Positions 35,449 to 57,651 of a stretch of DNA of 64,000 nucleotides are shown here, one piece after another. The notes under the pieces are model-generated. The model saw only the letters and a program-made list of their open reading frames with translations. It did no database searches and was not told the origin of the DNA. This DNA comes from Streptomyces sp. P3 (GTDB lineage Bacteria > Actinomycetota > Actinomycetes > Streptomycetales > Streptomycetaceae): the NCBI RefSeq assembly GCF_003032475.1, contig NZ_CP028369.1, positions 4,278,001 through 4,342,000 of the forward strand, given 5' to 3'. Position 1 is the first letter of the stretch, and every line of letters begins with the position of its first letter. Made by a program: the position numbers and the translations under genes.

Positions 35449-35471
35449 ACGGTACGGGCAGCCACCGACAA
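35449..35471 (-). promoter_or_regulatory. PafBC/RecA-NDp-type promoter of ogt
   Basis: On the minus strand TTGTCGGTG (35471-35463), exactly 8 bases, then TACCGT (35454-35449) match the TTGTCRGTG-N8-TAnnnT consensus in full. The ATG of ogt begins 6 bases further on. Confidence 0.85.
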
Positions 35472-35491
35472 CGCCCTGCGAGGGCCGCGCG

Positions 35492-36364
35492 TCAGAACCA
35501 GTACAGCGCCCGCCGCACCACGTCGGGCCGGTCGGTGATGACGCCGTCGACGCCGTACCCGGCGACGGCCCGGGCGGTCTCCGCGTCGTCGACGGTCCAG
35601 GTGAACACCTTCATCGGCCGCCCGTGCGGTCCGGTGAGCTCCTGCACCGCGGCGACGTACGCCTGGGAGAGGCCGGTGCAGGACGGGTTGATCTGGTCGG
35701 CGAACACCGAGATCCGGGGCAGGTCCGACAGGGCCGGCTTGCCGAGCAGGCCGATGCGCACCGCGGGCATCAGCCGGTGGACCGTCCGCAGGCAGTCGGC
35801 GCTGAAACTCTGCACGACCAACCGGCTGGCGAGGTGGTGCTCGTCCAGCCACACCTCGTCGCCCAGGAGTCCGAGGACCTCCTGCTCGATGCCCGGGTAG
35901 AGCTCGGGATTCTTGATCTCCAGAAGCAGGTTCTGGTGGTTGCGGTCGACCCGGTCGAGGTACTGCGTCAACGTCGGCACGCGCACGCCCGCGTAGGCGG
36001 GGCCGAACCAGCTTCCCGCGTCGAGCCGCGCGACCTCGGCGGCGGTGAAGTCCTTCACTTTCCAGGGGGCGCGGCCCGGAAAGACCTCTTCCACGTCCGT
36101 CGTCCGGCGGAGGCTGTCGTCGTGGACGACGACGAGCTCGCCGTCCCGGGTGCGCTGGACGTCGTTCTCCACCCAGAGGGTGCCCAGCGACTTCGCGCGG
36201 TCGACGGCCTCCAGGGTGTTCTCCGGAGCGACGGCGGAGGCGCCCCGGTGGGCGACCACCGCAGGCCGCAGCGCGATGCCCGCGCGGGCGCTGTGGACGG
36301 GGAGCAGGAGCGCCACGGTGCCCAGGATCACGGTGGTCATGACGGCAACTACGCGTGTGTGCAT
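35492..36364 (-). CDS. Secreted glycerophosphodiester phosphodiesterase
   Basis: This 290-residue protein starts with a signal peptide (VVAVMTTVILGTVALLLPVHSARA). The GDPD TIM-barrel fold follows, with the catalytic motif VAHRGASAVAPENTLEAV, then WVENDVQRTRDGELVVVHDDSL, supplying the His, Glu and Asp ligands, and GVDGVITDRPDVVRRAL at the end. It would hydrolyse glycerophosphodiesters outside the cell to glycerol 3-phosphate and an alcohol, a route to phosphate or carbon. The ATG at 36364 has gaggag 7 nt upstream. It is divergent from the MHYT gene. Confidence 0.94.
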   Translation of the reverse strand: MHTRVVAVMTTVILGTVALLLPVHSARAGIALRPAVVAHRGASAVAPENTLEAVDRAKSLGTLWVENDVQRTRDGELVVVHDDSLRRTTDVEEVFPGRAPWKVKDFTAAEVARLDAGSWFGPAYAGVRVPTLTQYLDRVDRNHQNLLLEIKNPELYPGIEQEVLGLLGDEVWLDEHHLASRLVVQSFSADCLRTVHRLMPAVRIGLLGKPALSDLPRISVFADQINPSCTGLSQAYVAAVQELTGPHGRPMKVFTWTVDDAETARAVAGYGVDGVITDRPDVVRRALYWF

Positions 36365-36528
36365 GCGTACTCCTCGCGTCGAGCGATCACATACAGCTCA
36401 ACTGTGACAGCGAAGGGTCCACGACGGCGGGGTGGCGCGGGGCGGTCACACGAAGGGAGGAGACACCCGACGCCCCTCACCGGTGCCGCACATGTGGGGC
36501 AAGGACGTGTTTCTTTGCCGGAAAATCG

Positions 36529-36557
36529 TTCGACCATTCCGGTGGGAGTCATACTTT
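36529..36557 (+). promoter_or_regulatory. Possible promoter of the MHYT gene
   Basis: TTCGAC (36529-36534), a 17-nt spacer and TACTTT (36552-36557) resemble a vegetative promoter. It lies in the 284-bp divergent gap between the GDPD and MHYT genes. No gene is recognised in that gap. Confidence 0.4.
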
Positions 36558-36648
36558 CCCTCAGCCTTGACCGCGCGCAGCGGTCCTGGAAGGCCGCGTT
36601 CCAGAGGCATCGGGCAAGATCCGGCAACAGGGCGAAGGGCAACCGCGC

Positions 36649-37515
36649 ATGCACGGCACGGTCGACGGTTTCAGCTACGGACTCGTCACCCCGCTGGTGG
36701 CCTACGTCATGGCCTGCCTCGGCGGTGCGCTGGGCCTGCGCTGCACCACCAGAGCCCTGCTCGTCGCCCACTCCTGGCGGCCGGGCTGGCTCGCCCTCGG
36801 CTCCGCGGCGATCGGCTCCGGCATCTGGACCATGCATTTCGTCGCGATGATCGGCTTCACCGTCCGGGGAGCCCCGATCCACTACGACAAACCCATGACC
36901 TACGGCAGCCTGGGCGTCGCCGTCGTCATGGTGGGCGTCGGGGTCTTCATCGTCGGCTACCGCGGCGCGACCGGAACCGCGCTGTTCACCGGAGGGACCC
37001 TCACCGGTCTCGGCATCGCGTCCATGCACTACCTCGGCATGGCCGGGATGCGCCTGAACGGCACGTTCACGTACAACACGCTCACCGTCGCGGTCTCCGT
37101 CGCGATCGCCATGGCCGCCGCCACCGTCGCCCTGTGGGCCGCGGGGCAGGTCAGGGGCTTCCTGTGGAGCGTGGGCGCCGGCCTGGTCATGGGGCTCGCC
37201 GTCACCGGCATGCACTACACCGGCATGGCCGCCCTCAGCGTTCATCTGCACACGGGCGGCGCCCCGACGGCGGGCGACCCGCCGGCCACCCTGCTCGCAC
37301 CCATGCTGATCGGCCCCCTCGCGTTCCTCTGCCTGGCCGGCGCCGTGGTGCTGTTCGACCCGCTGATGGTGATGGGCAAGCCGGACCGGGCCCCCGTCCC
37401 GCACCGCCCCGGCGTCCCGGCGCACCGGCCCGTCGGACATCCGGCGCGCGGCGCCCGCCTCCGCGGCCGCCGGGACGTGGCCCCCCGGGAGTCCCGCACC
37501 CCGCAGAACCGCTGA
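36649..37515 (+). CDS. MHYT-domain membrane sensor protein
   Basis: This 288-residue protein has about seven membrane helices carrying the three MHYT-type motifs that give the domain its name: WTMHFVAM, SMHYLGM and GMHYTGM. These are predicted to bind copper, and so to sense oxygen, CO or NO. Unlike many relatives it has no GGDEF/EAL output domain; the C-terminal 45 residues are only Pro/Arg/His-rich, so it must signal through another protein or act in a different way. The ATG at 36649 is chosen by family start. Confidence 0.9.
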   Translation: MHGTVDGFSYGLVTPLVAYVMACLGGALGLRCTTRALLVAHSWRPGWLALGSAAIGSGIWTMHFVAMIGFTVRGAPIHYDKPMTYGSLGVAVVMVGVGVFIVGYRGATGTALFTGGTLTGLGIASMHYLGMAGMRLNGTFTYNTLTVAVSVAIAMAAATVALWAAGQVRGFLWSVGAGLVMGLAVTGMHYTGMAALSVHLHTGGAPTAGDPPATLLAPMLIGPLAFLCLAGAVVLFDPLMVMGKPDRAPVPHRPGVPAHRPVGHPARGARLRGRRDVAPRESRTPQNR

Positions 37516-37557
37516 GCCGGCGCCTGCGCACGCCCCGAAACCCCTGATCGGACCCCG

Positions 37558-37580
37558 TTGTCAGTGGGGGGTCGTACGGT
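37558..37580 (+). promoter_or_regulatory. PafBC/RecA-NDp-type promoter of uvrB
   Basis: TTGTCAGTG (37558-37566), 8 bases and TACGGT (37575-37580) match TTGTCRGTG-N8-TAnnnT completely. Only 7 bases separate the -10 element from the uvrB ATG, so the transcript would be leaderless or nearly so. Confidence 0.85.
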
Positions 37581-37587
37581 GGATGGC

Positions 37588-39732
<2,145 letters not shown>

Positions 39733-39757
39733 CGGACCCGTGCGACTCCTGTGCCCG

Positions 39758-39801
39758 GGCCCGCACGTGCTGTGTTGCAAGACCGACACAAAGTGCGGGC
39801 C
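39758..39801 (+). terminator. Hairpin after uvrB
   Basis: Ggcccgcac (39758-39766) pairs with gtgcgggcc (39793-39801), a 9-bp stem with a 26-nt loop, 26 bases past the uvrB stop. It probably ends the uvrB transcript. Confidence 0.6.
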
Positions 39802-39812
39802 TGGGTGCGGCA

Positions 39813-39835
39813 CTGTCAGTGCCTTTGCGTAGGGT
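39813..39835 (+). promoter_or_regulatory. PafBC/RecA-NDp-type promoter of terD
   Basis: CTGTCAGTG (39813-39821), 8 bases and TAGGGT (39830-39835). Only the first base departs from TTGTCRGTG, and TAGGGT is the preferred -10. The -35 half also lies in the palindrome ggcactg-t-cagtgcc (39809-39823). The terD start is 57 bases downstream. Confidence 0.8.
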
Positions 39836-39892
39836 TTCCGTCAACCGCGGGCGCCGCGGCAACAGGGGACAGCTCGAGAGGGGAATCAGCGC

Positions 39893-40471
39893 GTGACCGT
39901 CAACATGACCAAGGGTCAGGCCATCAGTCTGCAGAAGAACGACGGGGGCAGCCTGACCGCGGTGCGCATGGGTCTCGGCTGGCAGGCGGCCCCGCGGCGC
40001 GGCCTGTTCGGCTCCCGGACCCGGGAGATCGACCTCGACGCCTCCGCCGTTCTGTTCGCGGACAAGCAGCCGGTCGACGTCGTCTTCTTCCGTCACCTGG
40101 TGAGCGACGACGGCTCCGTCCGCCACACCGGTGACAACCTGGTCGGCGGCGTCGGCCAGGGCGGCGACGACGAGGCGATCCTCGTCGACCTCGCGCGCGT
40201 GCCGGTCCACATCGACCAGATCGTCTTCACCGTGAACTCCTTCACGGGCCAGACGTTCCAGGAGGTGCAGAACGCCTTCTGCCGCCTGGTCGACGAGACC
40301 AACGGCCAGGAGCTGGCGCGCTACACGCTCGCGGGCGGCGGCGCGTACACGGCACAGATCATGGCGAAGGTGCACCGGGTCGGCGGAGGCTGGAACATGA
40401 CGGCCCTCGGGACTCCGGCCAACGGCCGTACCTTCCAGGACCTGATGCCCGCGATCCTGCCGGCGCTGTAG
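39893..40471 (+). CDS. TerD family protein (tellurium resistance / stress)
   Basis: This 192-residue single TerD domain binds Ca2+ in known members. Motifs are TKGQAISLQKNDGGSLTAVR, GLGWQ, REIDLDASAVLF, the acidic loop GGVGQGGDDEAILVDLARV, and QTFQEVQNAFCRLVDE. TerD proteins protect against tellurite, phage and membrane or DNA stress, by an unknown mechanism. The GTG at 39893 has gagggg 8 nt upstream. A DNA-damage-type promoter precedes it, and the second TerD-domain gene follows after 62 bases, probably in the same operon. Confidence 0.94.
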   Translation: MTVNMTKGQAISLQKNDGGSLTAVRMGLGWQAAPRRGLFGSRTREIDLDASAVLFADKQPVDVVFFRHLVSDDGSVRHTGDNLVGGVGQGGDDEAILVDLARVPVHIDQIVFTVNSFTGQTFQEVQNAFCRLVDETNGQELARYTLAGGGAYTAQIMAKVHRVGGGWNMTALGTPANGRTFQDLMPAILPAL

Positions 40472-40533
40472 GGCCGCCGGCCGGCGAGCGGCACCACCAC
40501 AACACCACACGTGACGCAGGGGGACGACAGGCG

Positions 40534-42582
40534 ATGACGGCCGAGCTGGTGCGGGGGCAGAACCACCCGCTCTCCCAGGTCCGGCTCGAGATCCGGATCT
40601 CGGCCGGCAAGCCCGTCGTGGCGACGGCCGTTCTCGGCGACGAGAGCGGCAGGATCCACGGCGTCGAGCGGGTGGCCCATCCGGGCGTGCCCACACTGCC
40701 CGGCCTGGAGGTTTCCCGCCAGGCCGCCGCGGACCACCGCCTCGCGGTGGACCTCGACGCGGTACCGGCGGCCGTGCACCGGGTGGGCGTCGTGCTGGCG
40801 CTGCCCACGGGAGTCGGCGGACCGGTCGGCTTCGGCTCGGTCGCGGCCCCCTTCGTCGCGGTCACCGGCCTCGACGGGGCCGAGATCGTCACCTTCACCC
40901 TCACCGGCCTGGACGCGGAGTCGGCCGTCATCGCGCTGGAGCTGTACCGGCGGCAGGGCGCATGGAAGGTGCGCGCCGTCGGGCAGGGCTATGCGGGCGG
41001 CCTCGCCGAACTCCTCACCGACCAGGGGCTGCCGCAGGCACATCAGCTCGCGACCGAGATCAACGAGGCCGTGGTGCGGGGCCTGGCCCGCTCGGTGCCG
41101 GCCCCGCCGCCCCCCACGTCCGACGGCGACCGCTCCCGCCAGACGGCCGCGCTCGGCCCGGACCAGAGCGGCTCGCCGTACAACCCCCAGAACACCCCCG
41201 GAGCCCAGGCAACGCACGGTGCCCAGGGCATCCCCGGGAGCCAGGGCGTCGGCGGCCCCTACGGAGCGACGTCGAGCGCCCACGGGACCGCGAGCCCGGC
41301 GGGCGGTGCCACGCCGTCCGACCCCGAGCCCGCGCAGTCGGCGTCCGCGCCCCCCGCCGGTGGTCCGATCGACTACAGCCATCCGCGCCGGCAGAACACC
41401 GCTCCGCCTCCGCCGCCGCCCACCGCGCCCCCGGCACAGCCCGGGGAGCCCGCCCGGCCGGTGGCCGGCGACGCGACCGGCTGGTCCATGGAGGAGCGGC
41501 TCTACAACCAGGTCTGGGGCATGTTCGAGGACCTGGCCCGCAGCACCGCCGCGTTTCGCAGCGCGGTCGACTTCGCCGACGCGCGGATGGAGAAGGAGCT
41601 CGACCAGGTCCTGTCCGACCCGCGCAGCAGGATCGGCGGCCAGGGCGAGGCCGCCCGTGAGGCGGCCCAGGCCAAGCACAGCCGGCTCGTCGACCAGGCC
41701 CGGGAGGCCCTGGACCGCGACCTCGGCCAGCTCGGCGCCGAGGCCGACGTAGTGGAACCGGCGCTGCCCGCCGCGTACGCGCGCTGGGACAGCCCCGTCT
41801 GGCACGCCTACCGCGTCCCCATGGAGATGCCCATGGCGCTGCGTCTGGGCGACCTCCACGTGCCCGAGAGCGAACCGCTGCGCATCCCGATGCTGGTCCG
41901 GCTCCCGCTCGAACGGGGGCTGTGGATCGACAGCGGACGCACCGGCTCGTCCGACGGGCTGTTCACCGACGCGCACGACATGCGCCGCCTGGCCATGGAG
42001 TCGGCCGTGGCGCACACGGCCCGGCTGCTCGCGGTGCATCCGGCCGGCGAGTTCACCGTGCACGTCCTCGACCCGGCCGGTTCGGCCGCCGGGGAGCTGT
42101 CGCCGCTGGTGCGGTCCGGGGTCCTCGCGGCTCCGCCCGCGGCCGGCGCGGCGGGTGTGGCAGCGGTCCTGGGGCAGCTCACCGAGCGCGTCGACCTGGT
42201 GCAGATGGCGGTACGCGGCGGGGTGGCCGACTCGCTGCCGCCCGGGTTCGACACCGCCCAGCAGTTGCTGGTCGTCAACGACTTCCCGCACGGTTTCGAC
42301 GACCGTGCGGTGACCCAGTTGCGCTATCTCGCGGACGAGGGCCCGGCCGTCGGCGTGCACCTGATGATGGTCGCCGACCGGGAGGACGCGGCCGGTTACG
42401 GTCCGTTGCTGGATCCCCTGTGGCGTGGGCTGCTGCGGCTGACCCCGGTGGCCGACGACCACCTCGCCGACCCCTGGGTGGGCCATGCGTGGACGTACGA
42501 ACCGGCTCTCGTGCCACCCGGTAGTCAGGTGCTGCAGCAGGTGCTGGCCCAGGTGGCGGCGGCCCGCACCAACTATCAGTAA
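40534..42582 (+). CDS. TerD-domain protein fused to an FtsK/HerA-like degenerate ATPase domain
   Basis: This 682-residue protein has three parts. Residues 1-190 form a TerD-like domain (VRGQNHPLSQVRLEIRISAG, FVAVTGLDGAEIVTFTLTGL, GGLAELLTDQGLP). Residues about 190-310 are a disordered Gly/Pro/Gln/Ser-rich linker. The C-terminal part (about 315-682) starts with a helix-rich segment and continues into a domain resembling FtsK/HerA P-loop ATPases: the place of Walker A is GLWIDSGRTGSSDG without GKS, the Walker B-like strand is QQLLVVNDFPHGFDDRAV and GVHLMMVADRED follows as in sensor strands. The loss of Walker A suggests a binding, non-catalytic role. The FtsK relation is inference. The ATG at 40534 has aggggg upstream. 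Confidence 0.85.
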   Translation: MTAELVRGQNHPLSQVRLEIRISAGKPVVATAVLGDESGRIHGVERVAHPGVPTLPGLEVSRQAAADHRLAVDLDAVPAAVHRVGVVLALPTGVGGPVGFGSVAAPFVAVTGLDGAEIVTFTLTGLDAESAVIALELYRRQGAWKVRAVGQGYAGGLAELLTDQGLPQAHQLATEINEAVVRGLARSVPAPPPPTSDGDRSRQTAALGPDQSGSPYNPQNTPGAQATHGAQGIPGSQGVGGPYGATSSAHGTASPAGGATPSDPEPAQSASAPPAGGPIDYSHPRRQNTAPPPPPPTAPPAQPGEPARPVAGDATGWSMEERLYNQVWGMFEDLARSTAAFRSAVDFADARMEKELDQVLSDPRSRIGGQGEAAREAAQAKHSRLVDQAREALDRDLGQLGAEADVVEPALPAAYARWDSPVWHAYRVPMEMPMALRLGDLHVPESEPLRIPMLVRLPLERGLWIDSGRTGSSDGLFTDAHDMRRLAMESAVAHTARLLAVHPAGEFTVHVLDPAGSAAGELSPLVRSGVLAAPPAAGAAGVAAVLGQLTERVDLVQMAVRGGVADSLPPGFDTAQQLLVVNDFPHGFDDRAVTQLRYLADEGPAVGVHLMMVADREDAAGYGPLLDPLWRGLLRLTPVADDHLADPWVGHAWTYEPALVPPGSQVLQQVLAQVAAARTNYQ

Positions 42583-42662
42583 ACCCTCCTGACCAGCGAA
42601 CTTGGGTTTGTTTTTACCAATCCCTTTACCTTCTCTTGGTGATTGGGGTACTCTTCTTCTCA

Positions 42663-42755
42663 CGGAGGGGAGTACTCCCTGCTGCGGCGTACCCGTCAAT
42701 ACGGATCAGGCCTGATCCCGGGGCGCCGGCCCGTCTCGGGTGGAAGAGACCTCCG
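42663..42755 (+). promoter_or_regulatory. yybP-ykoY manganese riboswitch upstream of terC
   Basis: This leader carries the yybP-ykoY conserved elements: the 5' GGGGAGTA, an internal gtcaatacg segment and the 3' GAGACCTCCGG. P1 is formed by cggagg (42663-42668) with cctccg (42750-42755). The class senses Mn2+ and often controls TerC/MntP-type membrane proteins. A possible promoter, TTTACC-18-TACTCT, lies just upstream. No gene is present between 42583 and 42804. Confidence 0.88.
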
Positions 42756-42800
42756 GCAGCGCGACGGCGCTGTTCACTTGCCGTTACGTACTGCCGGAGG
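42750..42800 (+). promoter_or_regulatory. Expression platform sequestering the terC ribosome site
   Basis: Cctccggcag (42750-42759), which includes the P1 3' strand, is perfectly complementary over 10 bp to ctgccggagg (42791-42800), which contains the ggagg ribosome site of terC. With P1 formed the ribosome site is free; without it the site is paired. Confidence 0.8.
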
Positions 42801-42804
42801 CGCA

Positions 42805-43806
42805 GTGGATGTTTCCGTGAATCTGTGGGTTCTGACCATCGTCGGCCTGGCCGCCCTGATCGCGGTCGACTTCTTCATCGGCCGCAAACCGCACGACGTC
42901 TCGATCAAGGAAGCCGGGATCTGGACGGTCGTCTGGATCGCCCTGGCCGGGCTGTTCGGCCTCGGCCTGTTCCTCTTCTCCGGGGGACAGCCCGCCGGAG
43001 AGTTCTTCGCGGGCTTCATCACCGAGAAGTCGCTCAGCGTCGACAACCTCTTCGTGTTCGTCCTGATCATGGGCAAGTTCGCGGTCCCGTCGCAGTACCA
43101 GCAGCGGGTCCTGCTCGTCGGCGTCCTCATAGCCCTGGTCCTGCGGGCCGTCTTCATCGCGGCCGGTGCGGCGATCCTCGCCAGCTTCGCGTGGGTCTTC
43201 TACCTCTTCGGCGCCTTCCTGATCTGGACGGCCTGGAAGCTCATCCAGGAGGCCCGCGCCGACGACGAGGACGAGGAGTTCGAGGAGAACAAGCTGCTCA
43301 AGGCTGCGGAGAAGCGTTTCGGCGTGGCGGACCGCTACCACGGCACGAAGCTGTGGATCGAGCAGAACGGCAAGCGGGTCATGACCCCGATGCTGGTCGT
43401 GATGCTGGCGATCGGCACGACCGACGTGCTCTTCGCCCTCGACTCCATCCCCGCCATCTTCGGGCTGACGCAGGACCCGTACATCGTCTTCACCGCGAAC
43501 GCCTTCGCGCTGATGGGTCTGCGGCAGCTGTACTTCCTCATCGGCGGTCTGCTGAGGAAGCTGGTCCACCTCAGCTACGGTCTGTCGATCATCCTCGGCT
43601 TCATCGGCGTGAAGCTGGTGCTGCACGCGCTGCACGAGTCCGGGGTGCACGTGCCCGAGATCAGCATCCCGGTCTCGCTCGGCGTCATCTGTTCGGTCCT
43701 GATCGTCACCACGATCACCAGCCTGCGGGCCTCCCGGAAGCAGGCGGCGGCCGAGGAGGCGCGGACGGCGAGTGAAGGCGCTCCGAAGGATCGCATCGGA
43801 GCCTGA
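42805..43806 (+). CDS. terC: TerC family integral membrane protein (manganese export)
   Basis: This 333-residue protein has about eight or nine membrane helices of the TerC/Alx family. Signature segments are ITEKSLSVDNLFVFVLIM, FGAFLIWTAWKLI, LAIGTTDVLFALDSIPAIFG and LRQLYFLIGGLL; the acidic residues within membrane helices (SVDN, TTDVLFALDS) are the expected metal ligands. Members with Mn2+ riboswitches are thought to export Mn2+ or help load metal into exported proteins. The GTG at 42805 follows the ggagg by only 4 nt; a GTG at 42817 is the alternative start. Confidence 0.95.
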   Translation: MDVSVNLWVLTIVGLAALIAVDFFIGRKPHDVSIKEAGIWTVVWIALAGLFGLGLFLFSGGQPAGEFFAGFITEKSLSVDNLFVFVLIMGKFAVPSQYQQRVLLVGVLIALVLRAVFIAAGAAILASFAWVFYLFGAFLIWTAWKLIQEARADDEDEEFEENKLLKAAEKRFGVADRYHGTKLWIEQNGKRVMTPMLVVMLAIGTTDVLFALDSIPAIFGLTQDPYIVFTANAFALMGLRQLYFLIGGLLRKLVHLSYGLSIILGFIGVKLVLHALHESGVHVPEISIPVSLGVICSVLIVTTITSLRASRKQAAAEEARTASEGAPKDRIGA

Positions 43807-43935
43807 CCATGTACGACGTAGGGACAACCACCCCCGGGAGCGGTGCGCGGCGAATTGCCGACCACCGCTTCCGGTGCTTCCTTGGTAGCCGGGCGTTTCC
43901 ACTTCGGGACGCCGCAGCCGGGGCGTGGAGGCACC

Positions 43936-44247
43936 ATGAGCACGTCGCAGAAGTTCGTGCAGATCATCGACCTCGAGACCGACCGCATCGACGAGATGCG
44001 CGCCCTCGCCGAGGAAGGGGAACGGAACTTCGCGGGCCGGGAGGACGCCCCGAAGCGCCGGCTCGTCCTCAGGGACAGGAACCGGCCGAACCATTACCTC
44101 GTGGTGGTCGAGTTCGACTCCTACGAGGCGGCCATGCGCAACAGCGAGGCCGAGGAGACGGGGAAGTTCGCGGAGGGCATGGCGGCGCTGTGCACCCGGC
44201 CGCCGTCCTTCACCGACTGCGACGTCGTGGACGCCGCCGAGTTCTGA
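43936..44247 (+). CDS. Small ferredoxin-like-fold (ABM-type) protein
   Basis: This 103-residue protein resembles dimeric alpha/beta-barrel (antibiotic biosynthesis monooxygenase-like) proteins: a first strand FVQIIDLET, a helix RIDEMRALAEEGERNF, a strand HYLVVVEFDSYEAAMRNSE and a closing strand. No catalytic residues can be assigned, so the fold call is inference. The ATG at 43936 has gtggagg 5 nt upstream. It lies 129 bases after terC on the same strand. Confidence 0.75.
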   Translation: MSTSQKFVQIIDLETDRIDEMRALAEEGERNFAGREDAPKRRLVLRDRNRPNHYLVVVEFDSYEAAMRNSEAEETGKFAEGMAALCTRPPSFTDCDVVDAAEF

Positions 44248-44368
44248 GGACTCCGCCGGCCGCGGTGTCGTACGGGCATGGGCCGCCCGGGGCCGCAGGG
44301 CCGACCGGAGCCGGTCCGGCCGTGCGGACCGGAGTGCGCGGCCCGCACGGCTCTGCGACGATCACAGC

Positions 44369-45469
44369 ATGATCGCTCGGCTCAGGTCGGTCACGACCCG
44401 GTGGACGGTCCTCGTGCCGGCGCTGGCGGTCGTGCTGCTGGTCCTGACCTGGGGGCGCGACCTGCCGGGCCCGCTGGTCGCGCTGCTGACGATGGTCCTC
44501 GCCGGAGCGGTCCTGGCCGCCGTGCACCACGCGGAGGTCGTCGCCCATCGGGTGGGTGAGCCGTTCGGCTCGCTCGTCCTCGCCGTCGCGGTGACGATCA
44601 TCGAGGTGGCACTGATCGTCACCCTGATGGCCGACGGCGGCGACAAGAGCTCGACGCTGGCCAGGGACACGGTCTTCGCGGCCGTGATGATCACCTGCAA
44701 CGGCATCGTCGGCCTCTGCCTGCTGGTGGCGTCCCTGCGTCACGGCACGGCGGTCTTCAACCCGGAGGGCACGGGAGCCGCCCTGGCGACCGTCGCCACA
44801 CTGGCCACGCTGAGCCTCGTCCTGCCGACCTTCACCACCAGCAAGCCGGGCCCGGAGTTCTCCGGTGTCCAGCTCACGTTCGCCGCCGTCTCCTCACTGA
44901 TCCTCTACGGCCTCTTCGTGGCGACGCAGACCGTACGGCACCGCGACTACTTCCTGCCGGTCACCCGTCAGGGAGACGTGATCACCGCGGACGACCACGC
45001 AGGCGTCCCCACCTCCCGGACCGCCCTGATCAGCCTCGGGATGCTCGGTCTCGCCCTGATCGGCGTGGTGGGACTCGCCAAAGGGGTCTCGCCCACGATC
45101 GAGGCCGGGGTGGACGCGGCCGGACTTCATCACGCGGTCGTCGGCGTGGTCATCGCACTGCTCGTGCTGCTCCCCGAGACCATCGCCGCGCTGCGCTCCG
45201 CACGCCGCGACCGGGTGCAGACCAGCCTCAACCTGGCGCTCGGCTCCGCGATGGCGAGCATCGGCCTGACCATCCCCGCGGTCGCCCTGGCCTCGATCTG
45301 GCTCTCGGGCCCCCTCGTCCTCGGCCTCGGCGCCACCCACATGGTGCTGCTGGCGCTCACCATCGTGGTCAGCTCGCTGACGGTGGTCCCGGGACGGGCC
45401 ACCCCGCTGCAGGGCGGCGTCCATCTGGTGCTCTTCGCCGCCTACCTGGAACTGGCGATCAATCCGTAG
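44369..45469 (+). CDS. chaA: Calcium/proton antiporter, ChaA/CaCA family
   Basis: This 366-residue protein has about 11 membrane helices with the two inverted alpha-repeat motifs of the Ca2+/cation antiporter superfamily: GEPFGSLVLAVAVTIIEVAL in the first half and LPETIAALRSARRDR, then NLALGSAMASIGLTIPAVAL, in the second. The conserved Glu in each is the ion-binding residue. It exchanges cytoplasmic Ca2+ or Na+/K+ for H+. The ATG at 44369 fits the family start. Confidence 0.93.
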   Translation: MIARLRSVTTRWTVLVPALAVVLLVLTWGRDLPGPLVALLTMVLAGAVLAAVHHAEVVAHRVGEPFGSLVLAVAVTIIEVALIVTLMADGGDKSSTLARDTVFAAVMITCNGIVGLCLLVASLRHGTAVFNPEGTGAALATVATLATLSLVLPTFTTSKPGPEFSGVQLTFAAVSSLILYGLFVATQTVRHRDYFLPVTRQGDVITADDHAGVPTSRTALISLGMLGLALIGVVGLAKGVSPTIEAGVDAAGLHHAVVGVVIALLVLLPETIAALRSARRDRVQTSLNLALGSAMASIGLTIPAVALASIWLSGPLVLGLGATHMVLLALTIVVSSLTVVPGRATPLQGGVHLVLFAAYLELAINP

Positions 45470-45637
45470 CGGCGGCCCTCCGCCCACTGCCGCAGGTCGC
45501 CGCCGGGGCCCGCCCCCGCTGCCCGCCCGAGGCGGATCGCGTACGACGTCGGGGGCTCGGCGGGGGCGTTCTCCCGACGGTCCGTCCGTGACCCCGAGGC
45601 GGGCTCATCAGCAGAACCACCAGTCACATCCTCACTG

Positions 45638-47602: not shown

Positions 47603-47631
47603 CGTCCTCCTCGACGTCGTGGATCAGACGC

Positions 47632-47961
47632 GTGAAGGTCTCCGGCCCTTACGGCTCCGAGGAGAACGGCTGGGAGGCCGGCGGCGAGTACGTCGAGAAC
47701 GACGTTTCCGCCCATTCGGGTGAGGAGTGCCCCGCACGCGAGCGGCTGATGGTCGACGCCCCGCTCGGCCGCTACAGCTTCACCGCCTCGACCCCGACCG
47801 CCGCCGCCCTGCGCCCGCTGAGCTACGTGGACGCGATCGAGCGGGACGAGGGCGACGAAGGCGCGGACTCGACACCCCCTTCGGGTGACGCGGGCATATC
47901 AGGTGGCCGGATGCTCGAAAATCGCGAGTACCGGCAGGGGAGCCGCTGTCAGGCCGCCTGA
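47632..47961 (+). CDS. Orphan reading frame, possibly a gene remnant
   Basis: This 109-residue frame has strong third-position GC for about 80 codons (VKVSGPYGSEENGWEAGGEY onwards, to YVDAIERDEGDEG), so it is or was coding. There is no ribosome site at the GTG at 47632. The coding bias fades toward the end, and the frame just upstream is GC-biased in a different phase. It lies beside the MBL fragment in a degraded stretch. No family was recognised; a truncated or frameshifted gene is as likely as an intact small one. Confidence 0.4.
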   Translation: MKVSGPYGSEENGWEAGGEYVENDVSAHSGEECPARERLMVDAPLGRYSFTASTPTAAALRPLSYVDAIERDEGDEGADSTPPSGDAGISGGRMLENREYRQGSRCQAA

Positions 47962-47967
47962 GATGTC

Positions 47968-48555
47968 CTACCAGGCCTTGATCGATGCGGCCGATCGGGC
48001 GGCCTGCTCGATCTTCGCGCAGTGGGCTGCGCGGGCTTCCTCGTCGATTTGCTTCTCGTGTTCGGCGCGCAACCCGGTCCGGCCGTCGAGGCCCTCCCGC
48101 AGGATGTCGGCGTGCCCGGCATGCCGGACGGACTCGCCGAGGACATGGACCATGATGGCGAACAGGTTCGTGTTGGGATGAGGTTCCGGCCACCACGGCA
48201 CGTGGCCTGGGGCGTCGAGGGGAAGCGCGGTGATCGTCGCGTCCGAGTGTTCCCACGTGCGCCGGTAGAACCCGATGATCTGAGCGCGAGTCTCGTCCTC
48301 GGTCGCCCACTGGTCGCTGCCGTCGGAGTCCTGCCACCGGGACAGCGTTTCAGGGGAAGGGCGGTCGAAGACCTCGCCGAAGTACCTCGCCTCGACGGTG
48401 GCCACGTGTTTGACCAGGCCGAGGAGGTTGGTCCCGGTCGCCGTCAGAGGTCTGCGGGCGTCGTACTCGGACAAGCCGTCGAGTTTCCAGAGCAGCGCCT
48501 CGCGGTCCCGCCGCAGTCTCCCGTGCAGGTTGGCCTTCGCGAATTCATCGATCAT
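47968..48555 (-). CDS. DinB family protein (DUF664 type)
   Basis: This 195-residue protein is of the DinB/YfiT-like four-helix-bundle superfamily. The metal-binding pattern is spread over three helices: LLGLVKHVATVEARYF, the VLGESVRHAGHADILREGL segment with two His, and an acidic segment between. In actinobacteria these proteins are candidate mycothiol- or metal-dependent enzymes; the substrate is unknown. The ATG at 48555 is chosen because ggaagg lies 10 nt upstream; an ATG 18 bases earlier is possible. Confidence 0.9.
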   Translation of the reverse strand: MIDEFAKANLHGRLRRDREALLWKLDGLSEYDARRPLTATGTNLLGLVKHVATVEARYFGEVFDRPSPETLSRWQDSDGSDQWATEDETRAQIIGFYRRTWEHSDATITALPLDAPGHVPWWPEPHPNTNLFAIMVHVLGESVRHAGHADILREGLDGRTGLRAEHEKQIDEEARAAHCAKIEQAARSAASIKAW

Positions 48556-48736
48556 GTGGCATGAACCTTCCATGGGTTGTTCGGGGTCTCGAGATCCCGT
48601 ACCTGGTCCGCAACGCGGGCAGAGCCGAGGCGTAGGACTCCTGACGCCATGAGCCGCCGGGAACGACTGGCTGTCAGGGAGACGTGGGGTGGGGGGCGGG
48701 GTGCGGGACGGCTCGCGGCCGACCGGCCTGCGACGG

Positions 48737-50053
48737 TCACCGCACAGGACAGCTGCGCGCATGCTGTTCGGTGCCGTTCTCTGATCCCGTTGAGCGGTCC
48801 GGGACGGGGACCGGGGAGGTGGGCGGGCGCCAGGTGAGGATCCAGCCGGCGGTAAGCACCGCCGCGCCCCCTGCCAGGGCGATCGCGCCGCCTGTTCCGA
48901 GGCCCGCGGCCATCGAGCCGAAGCAGGCCGGCCCGACGCCCTGCAGCGTCATGCCGGCGGAGCCGAGCAGACCGAACGCCTGGCCCCGGCCGTCCTGCGG
49001 CAGGGCGTCCAGGAACGGCCGTTGCAGGCCGAGGCCGTAGGGCAATCCGAAGCCGCAGAGCAGCAGCAGACAGGACGAGACGCCCACTCCGGGTTCGGTG
49101 GCGAAGCCGAGCAGCGGCAGTCCCGTCAGCGCGATCAACGGGACTACCAGTCGCTCCCGGGTGGGTGGCCGTAGCAGTCGACCCACCACCAGGTCACCGA
49201 CGAGCATGCCGACCGGCGGACAGCCCATCAGCACCGCGTACCAGCCGGGCGCGAAGTGGCGTCCTCCCGCGTAGGCGACGATCAGACCTTCCGCGCCCGT
49301 GACGAAGGCGGGCGGAAGCCACTGAGCCAGCATCAGTCGTCGTACCCTCTGTCCGCGCAGCAGCAGGACGGCGCCGTGCAGGCTTGCCCGGACGGCCCCG
49401 CCGTCGCCCCGAGCGCTGCCCGGTGTGCCGCCGAACTCTCCCGGCTCCAGCCGGGGCAGCCGGATGCGGACGGCGAGCGCGCAGCCGAGGTACAGGGCGG
49501 CGCTCACCACGAGCGCCCGGTGCGGGCCGAGCACCGCGACGACCGCACCTCCCAGCGCCAGACCGGACAATTGCGCGCCGGAGGATGCGATGTTGTTCAG
49601 TGAACGGCCCAGTACATAGGCGTCGCCCTCCAGCGACTGGGCGACCAGCCGACTCGACGCGCCGTGAAACACCGGTGTGGCGAGGGAGACCAGCGCCACG
49701 ACACCGAGGCTTGCCGCGATCGGCATCCGCACCAGGGCGAGCAGCAGGGCGCTGGCGCACGTCAAGGCGTAGCCGCCGGTGATGAGCGCGCGGGGCGGCA
49801 GCCGGTCGGCCAGCGAGCCCAGCAGCAGCGAGCCGAACAGCTGCGGGACGAAGCCGATGCCGAAAGCCACTGCGCTCAGCAGCGGGGAGCCGGTGGCCGA
49901 GAAGACCAGCACCGAGAACGTGGTGATCCGCAGCGCGTCCGCAGTGATCGCGACGGCGCGGGTCGAGAAGAGCAGCCGGAAGCGAGGCTCGGCCAGCACC
50001 TCCCGGTAGGTGGCGCGGTAATTGCCCTGCGCGGGTTCGGCGGTTGGGGTCAT
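48737..50053 (-). CDS. MFS exporter
   Basis: This 438-residue membrane protein has 12 predicted helices in the MFS fold. Typical segments are LFSTRAVAITADALRITTFS, GSLADRLPPRALITGGYALT and the central HGAVLLLRGQRVRRLMLAQW, as in MFS_3/enterobactin-exporter-like members. It probably exports a drug or metabolite. It is divergent from an ArsR-type regulator, with an operator-like dyad between them, so it is likely induced by its substrate. Confidence 0.9.
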   Translation of the reverse strand: MTPTAEPAQGNYRATYREVLAEPRFRLLFSTRAVAITADALRITTFSVLVFSATGSPLLSAVAFGIGFVPQLFGSLLLGSLADRLPPRALITGGYALTCASALLLALVRMPIAASLGVVALVSLATPVFHGASSRLVAQSLEGDAYVLGRSLNNIASSGAQLSGLALGGAVVAVLGPHRALVVSAALYLGCALAVRIRLPRLEPGEFGGTPGSARGDGGAVRASLHGAVLLLRGQRVRRLMLAQWLPPAFVTGAEGLIVAYAGGRHFAPGWYAVLMGCPPVGMLVGDLVVGRLLRPPTRERLVVPLIALTGLPLLGFATEPGVGVSSCLLLLCGFGLPYGLGLQRPFLDALPQDGRGQAFGLLGSAGMTLQGVGPACFGSMAAGLGTGGAIALAGGAAVLTAGWILTWRPPTSPVPVPDRSTGSENGTEQHARSCPVR

Positions 50054-50092
50054 GGCGCCCAGCCTCGACGTGCGCCGACGCCACTCACCAAT

Positions 50093-50112
50093 GATTCGTC
50101 GCTGGACGAATC
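50093..50112. promoter_or_regulatory. Predicted operator between the MFS and ArsR-type genes
   Basis: GATTCGTC-gctg-GACGAATC is a perfect dyad with 8-bp arms and a 4-bp spacer in the 88-bp divergent gap. It is the probable binding site of the regulator encoded at 50142. Confidence 0.8.
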
Positions 50113-50141
50113 GGAACAGCATCCCGCAGTAGCATGGCAGA

Positions 50142-51125
50142 GTGCTGCGCTTCGAAGTCTCCGTCGAGGACCTGCTGCGCAGCCGGTTCGCACTGTCGCC
50201 GGCGCTGGACCTCTGCCTGCTGCTGCGCTCGCTCGCCGACCACGACCGGCCGCTGCCGCGAGCATGGGCCACCCGACTCATGCCGGCCTTTGAGCGCCTT
50301 CGCCGCGAGACCGAACTGAACGCCGCCCTCGCCCTGCACACCACGCGCGGGGGCGGACCGAACTTCGTCGCCCCGCCTCCACGCGGCCTCAACCAGACCT
50401 GGGCAGACGACCTGGCCATGATCCGGGCCACACCGCTGGAAGCGGCCCGCCAAGAAATCGCCGCCAACGCCACCGGCCCGGCCGCCCGTGATCCCCGGGT
50501 ACGCGCAGTGCTGGACTCCACGGACGCCGTCTCCAGGATCGCCGAGGCGATGGACCAGGCGTGGCAGGAGCTGCTCGCCGCGGACTGGCCGCAACTGCGC
50601 GCGATCTGTGAGCGCGATGTCGTGCACCGGGTGGGTGTGATCGGCGAACACGGATGGGCCACGACCATCGAGAGCCTGCACCCGAGCATCGCCTGGCAAG
50701 CCGGCGGCATCGAGGTCGGCCACTTCCCTCAAGTCGGAACGGTCCGCCTCGCCGGCGACGGGCTACTGCTGATCCCTTCGGTCTTCGTCGAGAACATCGC
50801 CGCCCACCTGGAAGACCCCTGGCCCAGGACCTTGGTCTATCCTGCCCGCGGTACCGCCGCCCTGTGGGGCGAACAGGCGACCGTCCCCAGGCCGGACGCG
50901 CTGACCGCTCTGGTCGGCCGGGCCCGAGCCCGGCTGCTGGTGGCGCTGGACGCCCCGGCCAGTACCAGCCACCTCGCCCGAAGCCTGGCCATGGCACCGG
51001 GCGCGGTCGGAGATCACCTCGCCATCCTGCGAGACGCGGGGCTGCTCGTCCGCGCCCGGTCCGGACGGTCGGTGCTCTACCGGCGTACCCCGCTCGGCGA
51101 GGCGCTGGTCGCCGGTTCGGGCTGA
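50142..51125 (+). CDS. ArsR-type helix-turn-helix regulator with DUF5937 N-terminal region
   Basis: This 327-residue protein has a C-terminal winged helix-turn-helix of the ArsR type (STSHLARSLAMAPGAVGDHLAILRDAGLLVRARSGRSVLYRRT, about residues 270-315). A long N-terminal helical domain (RFEVSVEDLLRSRFALSP onwards, DUF5937-like) probably senses a ligand. Such proteins often repress a neighbouring MFS exporter. It is divergent from one, with a perfect dyad operator between. The GTG at 50142 is chosen by the family N-terminus. Confidence 0.88.
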   Translation: MLRFEVSVEDLLRSRFALSPALDLCLLLRSLADHDRPLPRAWATRLMPAFERLRRETELNAALALHTTRGGGPNFVAPPPRGLNQTWADDLAMIRATPLEAARQEIAANATGPAARDPRVRAVLDSTDAVSRIAEAMDQAWQELLAADWPQLRAICERDVVHRVGVIGEHGWATTIESLHPSIAWQAGGIEVGHFPQVGTVRLAGDGLLLIPSVFVENIAAHLEDPWPRTLVYPARGTAALWGEQATVPRPDALTALVGRARARLLVALDAPASTSHLARSLAMAPGAVGDHLAILRDAGLLVRARSGRSVLYRRTPLGEALVAGSG

Positions 51126-51279
51126 GGCTCCGGGGCCGTGTCCGTACGCAACGGGCGCCGCGAGATCGGCGCGAGATCTCGGTGCGGGGGAGCGCCTTGC
51201 CGGAAGCAGCTGGTGGAGCTGCGGGGCGTGCACAGCGGCACCGCTGCCTCCGGGGCCTCAAGGGGGCGTGGACCTCGCT

Positions 51280-51933
51280 CTACCAGCCCCGTGCGCGCCA
51301 CTCCGGAAGGTGCGGGCGCTCCGCGCCGAGCGTCGTATCGTTGCCGTGGCCGGGATAGACCCACGTCTCGTCCGGGAGCACGTCGAAAATCTTGGTCTCG
51401 ATTCCCGACATCAGGGACTGGAAGTCCTCGGGGCGCGTTGTCCTCCCGGGGCCGCCCGGGAACAGGCAGTCGCCGGTGAAGACGTGGGGGTGGCCGTGCG
51501 GGTCGTCGTAGACCAGGGCGATCGAGCCCGGCGTGTGCCCGACCAGATGGCGTGCCGTCAACTCCACGTTCCCCACCCGGATGACGTCCCCGTCGACGAC
51601 CGGGACGTCGGTCGGCACCGGGATGCCGTCGGCGTCCTCGCGGCCGGCGAAGGTGCGCGCCCGCGTGGCCGCCACGACCTCGGCGAGCGCCTGCCAGTGG
51701 TCGCCGTGCTGATGGGTGGTGACGACGGACGCGATGCCGTCGTCACCGATGGTGCCGAGCAGTGCCTGCGCGTCGTTCGCCGCGTCGATCAGCAGTTGCT
51801 CGTCGGTGGCCCGGCAGCGCAGCAGATAGGCGTTGTTGTTCATCGGGCCGACCGCGATCTTGGTGATCATCAGGTCCTTGAGCTCGTGCACGTCGGCCGG
51901 GCCGCCGACCGTCACCTGTCCGCTGTACGTCAT
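51280..51933 (-). CDS. Metallo-beta-lactamase-fold hydrolase (glyoxalase II-like)
   Basis: This 217-residue protein has the metal-binding motif THQHGDH (HxHxDH), the later ligands in HLVGHTPGSI and VFTGDCLFPGG, and the final His in VYPGHGNDT. It hydrolyses a thioester or similar bond in many relatives; in actinobacteria a mycothiol-linked substrate is possible. The ATG at 51933 starts the protein. The upstream isomerase-fold gene on the same strand ends 9 bases before, so the two likely form an operon. A decayed copy of its 3' end lies at 47468-47602. Confidence 0.92.
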   Translation of the reverse strand: MTYSGQVTVGGPADVHELKDLMITKIAVGPMNNNAYLLRCRATDEQLLIDAANDAQALLGTIGDDGIASVVTTHQHGDHWQALAEVVAATRARTFAGREDADGIPVPTDVPVVDGDVIRVGNVELTARHLVGHTPGSIALVYDDPHGHPHVFTGDCLFPGGPGRTTRPEDFQSLMSGIETKIFDVLPDETWVYPGHGNDTTLGAERPHLPEWRARGW

Positions 51934-51942
51934 GGCGGCAGC

Positions 51943-52629
51943 CTATAGCGGGGGAAGGGCCGGGAGCGGCCCGCCGTCGACCGTCAGCCCGGCGCCGTCA
52001 CGGCGTCCGGCGAGCCAGCCGAGGAGGTCCGCCGGGGTGCCGGTGACGGTCACCTCGGGCTCGTCGGCCTTGCGGCCCGTGCGCCACGCGCGCGTGCCGT
52101 CCGTGAGGCGCGTCGGCGGCACGTCGGGATGCCCGGTGAACCGCTCGGCGAGGAACTCGGTCTCCCGCTCGGTGAACTCCGCCGGCAGGTCCTCGAGCTC
52201 GTAGCCGATGCCGAGGTCCACGGCATGCAGCTCGACTTCCGCCCACCGCCGGAACGGCACGCGGGCCGCCGCGTCGACGATGCCGTTGCGCAGCTCCACC
52301 GTGCGCGACCAGTCCGCGGGCGCGGCTCCGGCCGCCTGCAAGCGGGCCGCGCTCTCCCGGACGTCCGCGAGCTGGACCTGAAGGGGCCGCGGGGCGTCCC
52401 GCTCGATGTCGGCGTCGCGTACCTGTGCGTCGGCGTACATGGGACGGCCCTCGAGGACGTTCACCAGGGCGTCCGCGTTGCGGGCGAGGTGGGCGAGGAC
52501 ATGGCCGCGGCTCCAGCCGGGCAGCCGCGACGGCTCGGCGACCGACGCGTCGTCCCGGCCGGCGACCGCGTTGAGCAGCCGTTCGGTCGCGGTGCGTACG
52601 GACTCCAGGTCATGAGCGTGATCAATCAT
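51943..52629 (-). CDS. Maleylpyruvate-isomerase-family protein (mycothiol-dependent type)
   Basis: This 228-residue protein has the DinB-like N-terminal bundle of mycothiol-dependent maleylpyruvate isomerases. The first ligand His is in GHVLAHLARNADALV and the later ones in RRWAEVELHAVDLGIGY; a C-terminal MDMPI_C-like domain with ADLLGWLAGR follows. The members carry out mycothiol-dependent isomerisation or detoxification. The neighbouring MBL hydrolase fits a mycothiol-linked pathway, but this is inference. The ATG at 52629 is the family start. Confidence 0.88.
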   Translation of the reverse strand: MIDHAHDLESVRTATERLLNAVAGRDDASVAEPSRLPGWSRGHVLAHLARNADALVNVLEGRPMYADAQVRDADIERDAPRPLQVQLADVRESAARLQAAGAAPADWSRTVELRNGIVDAAARVPFRRWAEVELHAVDLGIGYELEDLPAEFTERETEFLAERFTGHPDVPPTRLTDGTRAWRTGRKADEPEVTVTGTPADLLGWLAGRRDGAGLTVDGGPLPALPPL

Positions 52630-52785
52630 GGTGCTGACCTTAGCCTCGCCACTCGTTCGGGTGAAGGTGGTCGCCCGAGCCCGCTATTCGAATGCACGTG
52701 CTATAAGGTCGGTGGCGGCGTCAGGCATGCTGGAAGGCCGGGGATTGTTGTGAACCGGTGAACCCCGGCTGAATCCCGACCGGCG

Positions 52786-52808
52786 TTGTCAGTGGCTCGC
52801 CCTAGTCT
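52786..52808 (+). promoter_or_regulatory. PafBC/RecA-NDp-type promoter of uvrA
   Basis: TTGTCAGTG (52786-52794), 8 bases and TAGTCT (52803-52808) match TTGTCRGTG-N8-TAnnnT completely. The uvrA start is 55 bases downstream of the -10, so this mRNA has a leader. Confidence 0.85.
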
Positions 52809-52863
52809 GAGGAAGACGGGGGCCCCGCCCCTGTCACTTCTCTCAAGAAAGGTGCGGACCGGC

Positions 52864-55890
<3,027 letters not shown>

Positions 55891-55941
55891 CGCGGGCACT
55901 CCGTGCGCGTGGGCCCGGCCTGCCACGCGCAACGGCGAAAG

Positions 55942-55993
55942 GACGGCGCCCCGCGGGGCTCTTGGGTTCTACTGATCCCCGCGGGGCGCCGTC
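55942..55993 (+). terminator. Strong hairpin terminator after uvrA
   Basis: Gacggcgccccgcgggg (55942-55958) pairs perfectly with its complement (55977-55993), a 17-bp stem with an 18-nt loop, 51 bases after the uvrA stop. Confidence 0.9.
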
Positions 55994-56357
55994 GCGTTCT
56001 CGCCGTGAGCGCCCGCAGGCGCGGCCCGGGAAGGGTTCCGCCCATCGCGTCGCCCGGCTCGGCACCCGGCTCGGCGGCGCGCGGCGGTTTCCGCGCCGGC
56101 CCGGGAGCGAGCGACCGCCGCCGTGGGCCGCGCACCGCGCCGGCCGCCCCGCCGTCGCCGCCCGGCGCGGCGGCGGTCACGCGCTCCCGGAGACGGGGCG
56201 TCGCGCGCCGGGAGAGCCGTGCGGCAGGGCCGCGTGCGCGGTGTCCCCGGTGGCGACGGCGTCCACGACACCGATGGTGTCCACGATGTCGCCCCGCTCA
56301 CCCGGCGCCGAGTCGGCGCGCGCCCGGTAGGTCCCCGTCCCATCGGCGCGCGCCCGG
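55994..56357. other. Intergenic region with a short direct repeat
   Basis: No convincing gene is present. Frames on both strands are Arg/Gly/Pro-rich shadows without ribosome sites. The 16-bp direct repeat tcggcgcgcgcccggt occurs at 56313-56328 and 56343-56358, the second copy reaching the stop codon of the next gene. Confidence 0.5.
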
Positions 56358-57326
56358 TCAGGCCCAGTCCCAGCCGATGCCCACCATGCCCGACCGAACC
56401 CGCGGCTCCACGAGGTGCACCGAGCGGTGCCGGCCGCTGAGCGCCAGTTCCTGGAGGCCGCCGCGCGGAGCCGCCGCCGAGTGCTGGGTGAAGCGGTGGC
56501 AGTGCACCGGAAGCGTGTTCTCCGTGAAGCGGATCTGGAGGGCGTACTGGCCGCCGGCCGTCCCGAAGCCGCGCACGTACTCGCGACACACGCCGGCGGT
56601 GCCGTCCTCGACGCCGTAGCGGAAGAGGAACGTGTCGCCGGCCCGCAGCCGGGTGTCGAACAGGAACTCCGCCACGAGCACGCCGGCGTCGTGATGACGG
56701 CGGACGCGGCCGGCCCGGCAGTTCTCCAGGGCATGCACGGTCATCCGCTCCGGCGCGCAGCCCGGGTCACCGTGATGGACGGCGACGAAGCGGTCGACGC
56801 CGTCGCGATGGGCGCGCACGATGTGCTGCGACTCCCGGCCGGACAGCTCCCGGCGCGCCCCGATGCGCACCCGCTCGTGATGGCCGAGCGTGTGCAGACC
56901 CCCGTCCACGGAGCACTCCAGTTCGCCGAGCAGTTGTTCGAGAGCCCCGGAGGCCTGGAGCAGCGAACGGTAGGAGCGGCCCGCGGACGCCCTCGCCGAC
57001 GCGCTCCCGTGTGCGTCGTCGGACTCCGCGAGCAGCCGGATGAGGGACTCGTCCGGTAGTTGCAGGATCTCCTCCAGCGCGCGCACGGCGCGCAGCGACT
57101 CGGGGCGCTGCGGCCGCCGGGCGCCCTGCTGCCAGTAGCTCAGGCTGGTGACGCCCACCCGGACCCCGTACCGCGACAGATGATGCTGGACGCGTTGCAG
57201 CGGCAGTCCGCGGGCGGCGATCGCGGCACGCAGCGCCACGTGGAAGGGGCCGCCCTGCAGGGCCGTGTCCAGTTCCGCGGCGGGGGCCTGGCCGGCGGTG
57301 TCCGCGTGCTGTGGGGCGTGCGGCAT
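56358..57326 (-). CDS. XRE-like regulatory protein, unknown
   Basis: This 322-residue protein has an N-terminal helix-turn-helix-like segment (AIAARGLPLQRVQHHLSRYG, VTSLSYWQQGARRPQR, about residues 35-75), as in transcription regulators that pair with the LGT-type XRE motif. A beta-rich C-terminal half has LQIRFTENTLPVHCHRF and ends near GRHRSVHLVEP. The target and the ligand are unknown. The ATG at 57326 has aaagg 8 nt upstream; a GTG 27 bases earlier is possible. It is divergent from the uvrC operon. Confidence 0.75.
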   Translation of the reverse strand: MPHAPQHADTAGQAPAAELDTALQGGPFHVALRAAIAARGLPLQRVQHHLSRYGVRVGVTSLSYWQQGARRPQRPESLRAVRALEEILQLPDESLIRLLAESDDAHGSASARASAGRSYRSLLQASGALEQLLGELECSVDGGLHTLGHHERVRIGARRELSGRESQHIVRAHRDGVDRFVAVHHGDPGCAPERMTVHALENCRAGRVRRHHDAGVLVAEFLFDTRLRAGDTFLFRYGVEDGTAGVCREYVRGFGTAGGQYALQIRFTENTLPVHCHRFTQHSAAAPRGGLQELALSGRHRSVHLVEPRVRSGMVGIGWDWA

Positions 57327-57628
57327 GCAAGGGGCCTTTCTGTGAATGCTCACGACGGTTGGTCGGACCGTTCGTGCGAAGGGCCGGGGCCTGGCCGGCC
57401 ACGCGGAGCGTCTTCACATCCGAAAGGCGGCGTTCAGGTCCCGAGTTCCCCCGCATTGAAGCGTGTTGACCAAGTCCCGACAACACCTGATGCCCGAGTG
57501 GCATGTGCGTGTGGCCGAGTCGACGCCCTCGGCCCCACCTCTGTCGCGCCCCGGCCCCGCCCGTCCCGTGCCCGTGCCCGCACGGGGCCCGGAAGGCCGC
57601 CCCGGCCGTTGTCCACAGCCCCACCGGA

Positions 57629-57651
57629 GTGTCACCCCGCGCCAGTAGGGT
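57629..57651 (+). promoter_or_regulatory. Weak PafBC-type promoter of uvrC
   Basis: GTGTCACCC (57629-57637), 8 bases and TAGGGT (57646-57651). Only the core TGTCA of the -35 box matches, but the -10 is the preferred TAGGGT and it ends 7 bases before the uvrC ATG, the same geometry as uvrB. The remaining gap, 57327-57628, shows nothing else. Confidence 0.5.

Follow-up and report, generated by a model that had tools for sequence, protein, structure and literature searches.

A repeated promoter motif in front of DNA repair genes

The window analyzed here is a 64-kb stretch of Streptomyces sp. P3 DNA (contig NZ_CP028369.1, positions 4,278,001 to 4,342,000), which carries ogt, uvrB, a gene for a TerD-domain protein, uvrA and uvrC (Table 1). 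Four of these genes are preceded by the motif TTGTCRGTG-N8-TANNNT, which matches the consensus of the RecA-independent promoter (RecA-NDp) of Mycobacterium, here designated PafBC-type. The original prediction, made from the letters of this DNA, had placed the motif at ogt, uvrB, uvrA and terD. Indeed, the match is exact at the first three and has one mismatch at terD, the boxes are separated by 8 bases in all four cases, and all four sites lie between called genes. When up to two mismatches were allowed, the window yielded five matches as compared to 1.27 expected from shuffled sequences, and only one of 100 shuffles reached five. The copy upstream of uvrC had been described as degraded. It has four mismatches, TGTCA and the -10 hexamer TAGGGT being retained and the GTG being lost. 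Among 30 Streptomyces uvrC loci including the present one, 0–1 mismatch was found in seven and two mismatches in eight, so the description is apt. The start of uvrC was revised to position 57659, the gene caller having placed it at 57716. With the sites in the window, a known class of promoter gains new members.

Table 1. Motif sites, SOS-like element and associated genes in the window.
Feature	Position	Strand	Remarks
PafBC-type promoter of ogt	35449..35471	-	exact; -10 TACCGT, ATG 6 nt past last T
ogt, methylated-DNA-protein cysteine methyltransferase	34888..35442	-	NCBIfam TIGR00589
PafBC-type promoter of uvrB	37558..37580	+	exact; ATG 7 nt downstream
uvrB	37588..39732	+	NCBIfam TIGR00631
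PafBC-type site before terD	39813..39835	+	one mismatch (C at position 1)
TerD-domain protein gene	39893..40471	+	Pfam PF02342; called GTG start 57 nt past site
SOS-box-like element before uvrA	52688..52705	+	TCGAATGCACGTGCTATA; conserved in 18/20 other Streptomyces
PafBC-type site before uvrA	52786..52808	+	exact; 55 nt upstream of GTG start
uvrA	52864..55890	+	NCBIfam TIGR00630
Degraded PafBC-type site of uvrC	57629..57651	+	GTGTCACCCCGCGCCAGTAGGGT; ATG 7 nt downstream
uvrC	57659..59851	+	NCBIfam NF001824

The motif is over-represented in the genome and marks genes of DNA metabolism

The whole genome (9.85 Mb) was scanned with the motif and, as control, with the reversed pattern. Exact matches numbered 21 as compared to none for the control, and 103 sites versus 9 were detected when one mismatch was tolerated. 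Permitting spacers of 5–11 bases returned the same 21 exact matches (control: 1), i.e. the spacer was 8 in 21 of 21 cases, which argues against chance since chance matches would be spread across the seven spacings. The surroundings were examined for 90 of the 103 sites, 13 being left out. According to the gene caller, 72 of the 90 are intergenic; 69 are oriented toward the following gene and one away from it, and for two the stretch contains no called gene. One-mismatch sites in which the TA of the -10 element is altered to xA were considered as a separate repeat, an idea that was dropped because several of them share the start-codon geometry described below and precede repair genes (lhr, ligA, dinB); they were provisionally kept in the group.

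Filtering of the downstream genes by coding score, distance and length retained 67 genes. Judged by NCBIfam and Pfam domains, 29 of the 67 function in DNA repair, recombination or replication (four of them, L014, L015, L065 and L076, assigned by a generic domain), and behind exact sites the share is 11 of 20 genes. The usual genome-wide share of such genes is ~2%. The repair genes comprise recA, uvrA, uvrB, ogt, ruvC, ung and the genes for an alkyltransferase-like protein, exonuclease III, XseA and DinB. Helicases are represented by two UvrD proteins, DinG/YoaA, RecQ, RecD2, Lhr and a DEAD helicase, and replication by LigA, PriA, DnaB, DnaG, DnaE, DnaX, HolA and HolB. RadA, identified by its domain make-up, a DnaQ-like exonuclease, a PD-(D/E)XK nuclease and a protein with a RecD2-type HHH domain complete the list. 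The genome scan that the original prediction had proposed thus returned a count far above chance and a set of targets rich in DNA repair genes.

Some further genes behind such sites are worth recording. The DrmA helicase gene of a DISARM anti-phage system (L041, C1:1766212-1769234) follows a one-mismatch site, and a divergent gene pair encoding an unassigned protein and an AAA_5 ATPase (L005/L032, C1:1177218-1177323) has a site facing each gene. L004, which encodes an extracytoplasmic function (ECF) sigma factor whose tail is SnoaL-like, carries an exact site at C1:1091309-1091331, as it does in three of five other Streptomyces. The exact site of helicase gene L015 is located ~3 kb downstream of pafC.

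Start codons cluster directly behind the -10 element

Start codons cluster 6–7 nt past the last T of TANNNT. ATG is found at these offsets for 5 of the 21 exact sites (background 0.24 per offset), for 21 of 68 one-mismatch sites (background 0.69 per offset) and for 33 of 104 exact sites in five other Streptomyces (background 1.04 per offset), and 29 of the 67 target genes start at this distance. Within the window the geometry applies to uvrB (7), uvrC (7) and ogt (6), and not to uvrA (55) and terD (57). The simple reading is that these transcripts are probably leaderless. Such an arrangement is not obligatory for the promoter class, since in M. tuberculosis the start codon of Rv1955 lies ~50 nt past the transcription start that was mapped for a promoter of this kind (PMC2897130), which weighs against a general leaderless rule.

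Conservation of the sites differs between genes

Conservation was assessed in 20 other Streptomyces, taken from a set of 61 genomes because their match lay on the plus strand of a long contig. The site of uvrB is present with at most one mismatch in 19 of 20 relatives (13 exact) and that of ogt in 14 of 19. The uvrC site reaches this level in 6 of 20 relatives, and 14 of 20 have at most two mismatches. In contrast to uvrB and ogt, both uvrA and terD have a site with at most one mismatch in only 4 of 20 relatives; at uvrA, three of the four are exact and have the spacer of 8. The uvrA site is confined to part of the genus, and at terD the -10 sequence TGCGTAGGGT is kept in more relatives than the upstream box. 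Other genes of the same stretches, which served for comparison, had at most one mismatch in 5 of 348 cases; all five were exact and are perhaps real members. Within the predicted regulon, uvrA and terD are weak candidates for core membership.

Beyond the window, the recA site is present in all of five other Streptomyces, where 47 of the 104 exact sites are followed by an ortholog of one of the 67 genes and the other 57 are not. In 22 Streptomyces genomes, 535 motif matches were counted as compared to 4 for the control. Genome G523 is peculiar in that a repeat (L606, L621, L651-L655) with sequences such as TTGTCGGTGGGGCGGCCTACCCT resembles the promoter and makes the motif counts there too high.

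A LexA operator is predicted upstream of uvrA

The original prediction had further held that the regulon is free of LexA sites. This part is not supported at uvrA. The SOS-like element TCGAATGYRCGTGCTATA, 98 nt before the PafBC-type site, has been maintained in 18 of 20 relatives, and binding of LexA upstream of uvrA has been detected in S. venezuelae by chromatin immunoprecipitation and surface plasmon resonance (PMC9380542). The element itself has three mismatches to the palindrome TCGAAC-N4-GTTCGA, a score that 231 of 1000 random windows equal or surpass. It is a probable LexA operator. At recA, an SOS-like box with two mismatches is present. The best matches at ogt (four mismatches) and uvrB (three) are no better than those of random windows.

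Motif excess tracks PafC outside the class Actinomycetes

PafB and PafC are encoded by adjacent genes (PF19187 at 98.5 bits), and each matches M. smegmatis PafBC chains in PDB entries determined by cryo-electron microscopy (cryo-EM) with E ~1e-52. In PafB, the stretch RMFERDK, which corresponds to the recognition helix, is shared with these chains. Within the class Actinomycetes PafC is near-universal (215 of 217 genomes; the two lacking it have no motif match), and therefore genomes with and without PafC were compared outside the class. A sample of 296 genomes from the phylum was scored for exact motif versus reversed control. In it, 12 Streptomyces yielded 288 matches versus 2 and 23 other class members 135 versus 1. 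Among the genomes beyond the class, the 117 that encode PafC had 30 matches versus 6 for the control, whereas the 144 that lack it had 21 versus 24 (Fisher p 0.001, counted by matches). This co-variation favors PafBC as the reader of the motif. The data agree with the original assignment to the RecA-NDp/PafBC type of promoter: the motif is over-represented and marks repair genes, PafB and PafC are encoded, and the excess tracks PafC outside the class. We infer that the motif sites are very probably promoters of a PafBC-type DNA-damage regulon independent of RecA and LexA.

In mycobacteria, PafBC is activated by single-stranded DNA; its PafB subunit binds the -26 motif and its PafC subunit contacts domain 4 of sigma (PMC11804915). 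By analogy, single-stranded DNA would be sensed by the WYL domains of the PafB-PafC pair. PafB would then read the -26 box while PafC touches domain 4 of the housekeeping sigma factor, which would let RNA polymerase initiate from TANNNT. In the window this would drive nucleotide-excision repair, i.e. uvrB firmly, uvrC weakly and uvrA through a second input beside LexA, as well as ogt. Elsewhere in the genome, recA, ruvC, pcrA, dinG, recQ, radA, dinB, ligA and replisome genes would respond.

Alternative explanations

Several observations do not fit this interpretation smoothly. Among the 67 target genes, 38 have other or unassigned functions; 14 lack a Pfam hit, and one (L086, a copy of L085) was left out of the Pfam scan. 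Counted by genome, the contrast outside the class is weak (26 of 117 versus 20 of 144, p 0.10), and an exact site is missing from several class genomes that encode PafC, among them G133, G192 and G198. Moreover, the M. smegmatis motif was reported in 2022 as not conserved in S. venezuelae (PMC9380542). Finally, 18 of the 90 examined sites lie within called genes (12 antisense, 6 sense), and in genome G523 the repeat accounts for 7 of 22 exact sites. The latter two points could be taken to mean that the motif arises by chance or is carried by repeats. Some of the six sense sites are start-calling errors, since a start codon directly follows the site, and the 21 exact sites versus none for the control, the fixed spacer and the targets common across species contradict chance for the set as a whole; the probability of this explanation is negligible.

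The motif could also be read by a different factor, PafBC being uninvolved. ClgR is cited as recognizing the RecA-independent promoter motif (PMC5656591, Discussion), which speaks against PafBC, and an alternative sigma factor could be considered as well, given that the ECF sigma gene L004 itself carries an exact site here and in three of five other Streptomyces. Yet cryo-EM and in vitro transcription demonstrated that promoters of this class are used by PafBC with the housekeeping sigma factor (PMC11804915), and the motif excess tracks PafC outside the class, leaving such a reader improbable. Less easily dismissed, albeit still unlikely, is the idea that the sites of uvrA and terD are ordinary promoters whose boxes resemble the motif by chance or recent change and that these genes escape PafBC control in most of the genus. 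Their restriction to 4 of 20 relatives each, the better conservation of their -10 regions and the conserved SOS-like element of uvrA agree with it; the uvrA match is nevertheless exact with the spacer of 8, here as well as in three relatives. For the set as a whole, PafBC control of a damage regulon remains the preferred explanation.

PafBC-type promoters in phages

Viral contigs were searched for copies of the motif that have an ATG 6–7 nt behind them. Among the matches listed, recurring gene families were found next to chance matches, which included many short frames. The phage counts given below come from protein searches, for which queries were derived from these motif scans. The first family is an IrrE-like metalloprotease of temperate Gordonia and Mycobacterium phages (54 loci; L402, L265, L495-L548). 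Directly before its start, the promoter is exact in 18 of the 54 loci and has a single mismatch in 13, giving 31 loci with one mismatch or none; another 9 have two and 14 have three or more mismatches. Of 2061 random windows from these loci, none came within one mismatch of the motif. The queries measure 135–147 amino acids (aa) and match the PHROG 87 metallo-protease family, and residues H54, E55 and H58 of the HEXXH zinc motif are invariant in 32 aligned sequences. Searches of Pfam gave no hit for the protease and sequence searches of the PDB no significant one.

Eight named phages (L487-L494) were inspected for gene context. At most one mismatch precedes the protease in five of the eight; Cashline has two mismatches, and no site was found near the protease start in Finkle (two mismatches, 92 nt away) and Mbo4 (four mismatches). 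In phiGD20-1 the site falls inside the annotated gene, whose start was placed 93 nt ahead of the ATG behind the site. In all eight, the protease gene adjoins, or is a few genes away from, the repressor or its replacement (a hypothetical protein in Mbo4). An integrase gene is close by, a DUF3263/helix-turn-helix (HTH) gene often lies between, and divergent HTH or antirepressor genes are present where annotated.

Two further families come from phages with ~40% guanine-cytosine content. A YqaJ/RecE-like recombinase (L549-L605) is represented by 49 loci, 8 of 57 having been left out for lack of an upstream region, of which 19 carry an exact site, 17 one mismatch and 13 two; ATG follows at 6–7 nt in 49 of 49, and the spacer itself is conserved. 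A protein of 92 aa that gave no family hit (L710-L789) has an exact site in 72 of 78 loci, comprising 24 distinct site sequences, and ATG at 6 nt in 66 of these 72; the other 6 of 78 have four or more mismatches, and 2 of 80 loci were left out for the same reason as above. The 181 phage loci are not independent cases, as they are related within each family.

Judged from these sequences, it is conceivable, though we regard it as slightly less than an even bet, that actinobacterial phages took over the PafBC promoter as a damage sensor of their own, temperate Gordonia and Mycobacterium phages for LexA- and RecA-free prophage induction via the IrrE-like protease, and that the phages with ~40% guanine-cytosine content use it for the RecE-like recombinase and the 92-aa protein. 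DNA damage would activate host PafBC and raise the level of the protease, which in turn would inactivate the repressor; induction of the prophage would then require neither LexA nor RecA. Genes 40-43 of phage Sbash, including the repressor and the IrrE-like gene, are expressed in its lysogen (PMC6426596). The protease is thus not silent before damage, which weakens a simple on/off picture. If true, prophages would possess an induction route outside RecA-driven repressor cleavage, bearing on lysogeny in many soil and water bacteria.

Comparison with known systems

The RecA-NDp/PafBC regulon of Mycobacterium was reportedly described by Gamulin 2004 and Mueller 2018, and a RecA-NDp promoter is said to precede recA of S. 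rimosus (Ahel 2002). Among the matches listed in the open-access literature, no earlier report of a PafBC-type regulon in Streptomyces was found, nor, judged by title or the start of the abstract, of PafBC-type promoters in phages. The same literature gave no paper that connects leaderless starts, DNA damage and uvrB in Streptomyces, and, going by their titles, the matches listed for the motif letters seemed to concern other subjects. In Streptomyces, a PafBC-like response has been termed still to be shown (PMC9380542). The present data provide evidence on this question: a RecA/LexA-independent damage response reaching the replisome is a well-supported prediction.

The predicted regulon resembles that of Mycobacterium (PMC6789036, PMC8223512, PMC11804915) in the type of promoter, in DNA repair genes as targets, in the presence of PafB and PafC, and in that recA has both a PafBC-type promoter and an SOS-like box. 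For its part, the Streptomyces set includes dnaE, dnaB, dnaG, dnaX, holA, holB, priA and ligA and many starts of leaderless type. Within the genus, SCO6735 of S. coelicolor is UV-inducible and has a RecA-NDp promoter (PMC5087735); promoter type and genus are alike, but single genes were addressed there, with no evident link to PafBC, and a genome-wide set is addressed here. The LexA regulon of S. venezuelae overlaps with the present targets at recA, ruvC and uvrA, whereas ogt, dnaB, dnaE, dnaG and dnaX are outside its Table 1, which is a selection, and uvrB is absent from the main text (PMC9380542).

ImmA of ICEBs1 and IrrE of Deinococcus exemplify the ImmA/IrrE-type anti-repressor proteases. 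The phage protease resembles them in its invariant HEXXH motif and in its position beside or near the immunity repressor, but differs from them by its small size, the absence of a Pfam hit and, in many phages, a PafBC-type promoter upstream.

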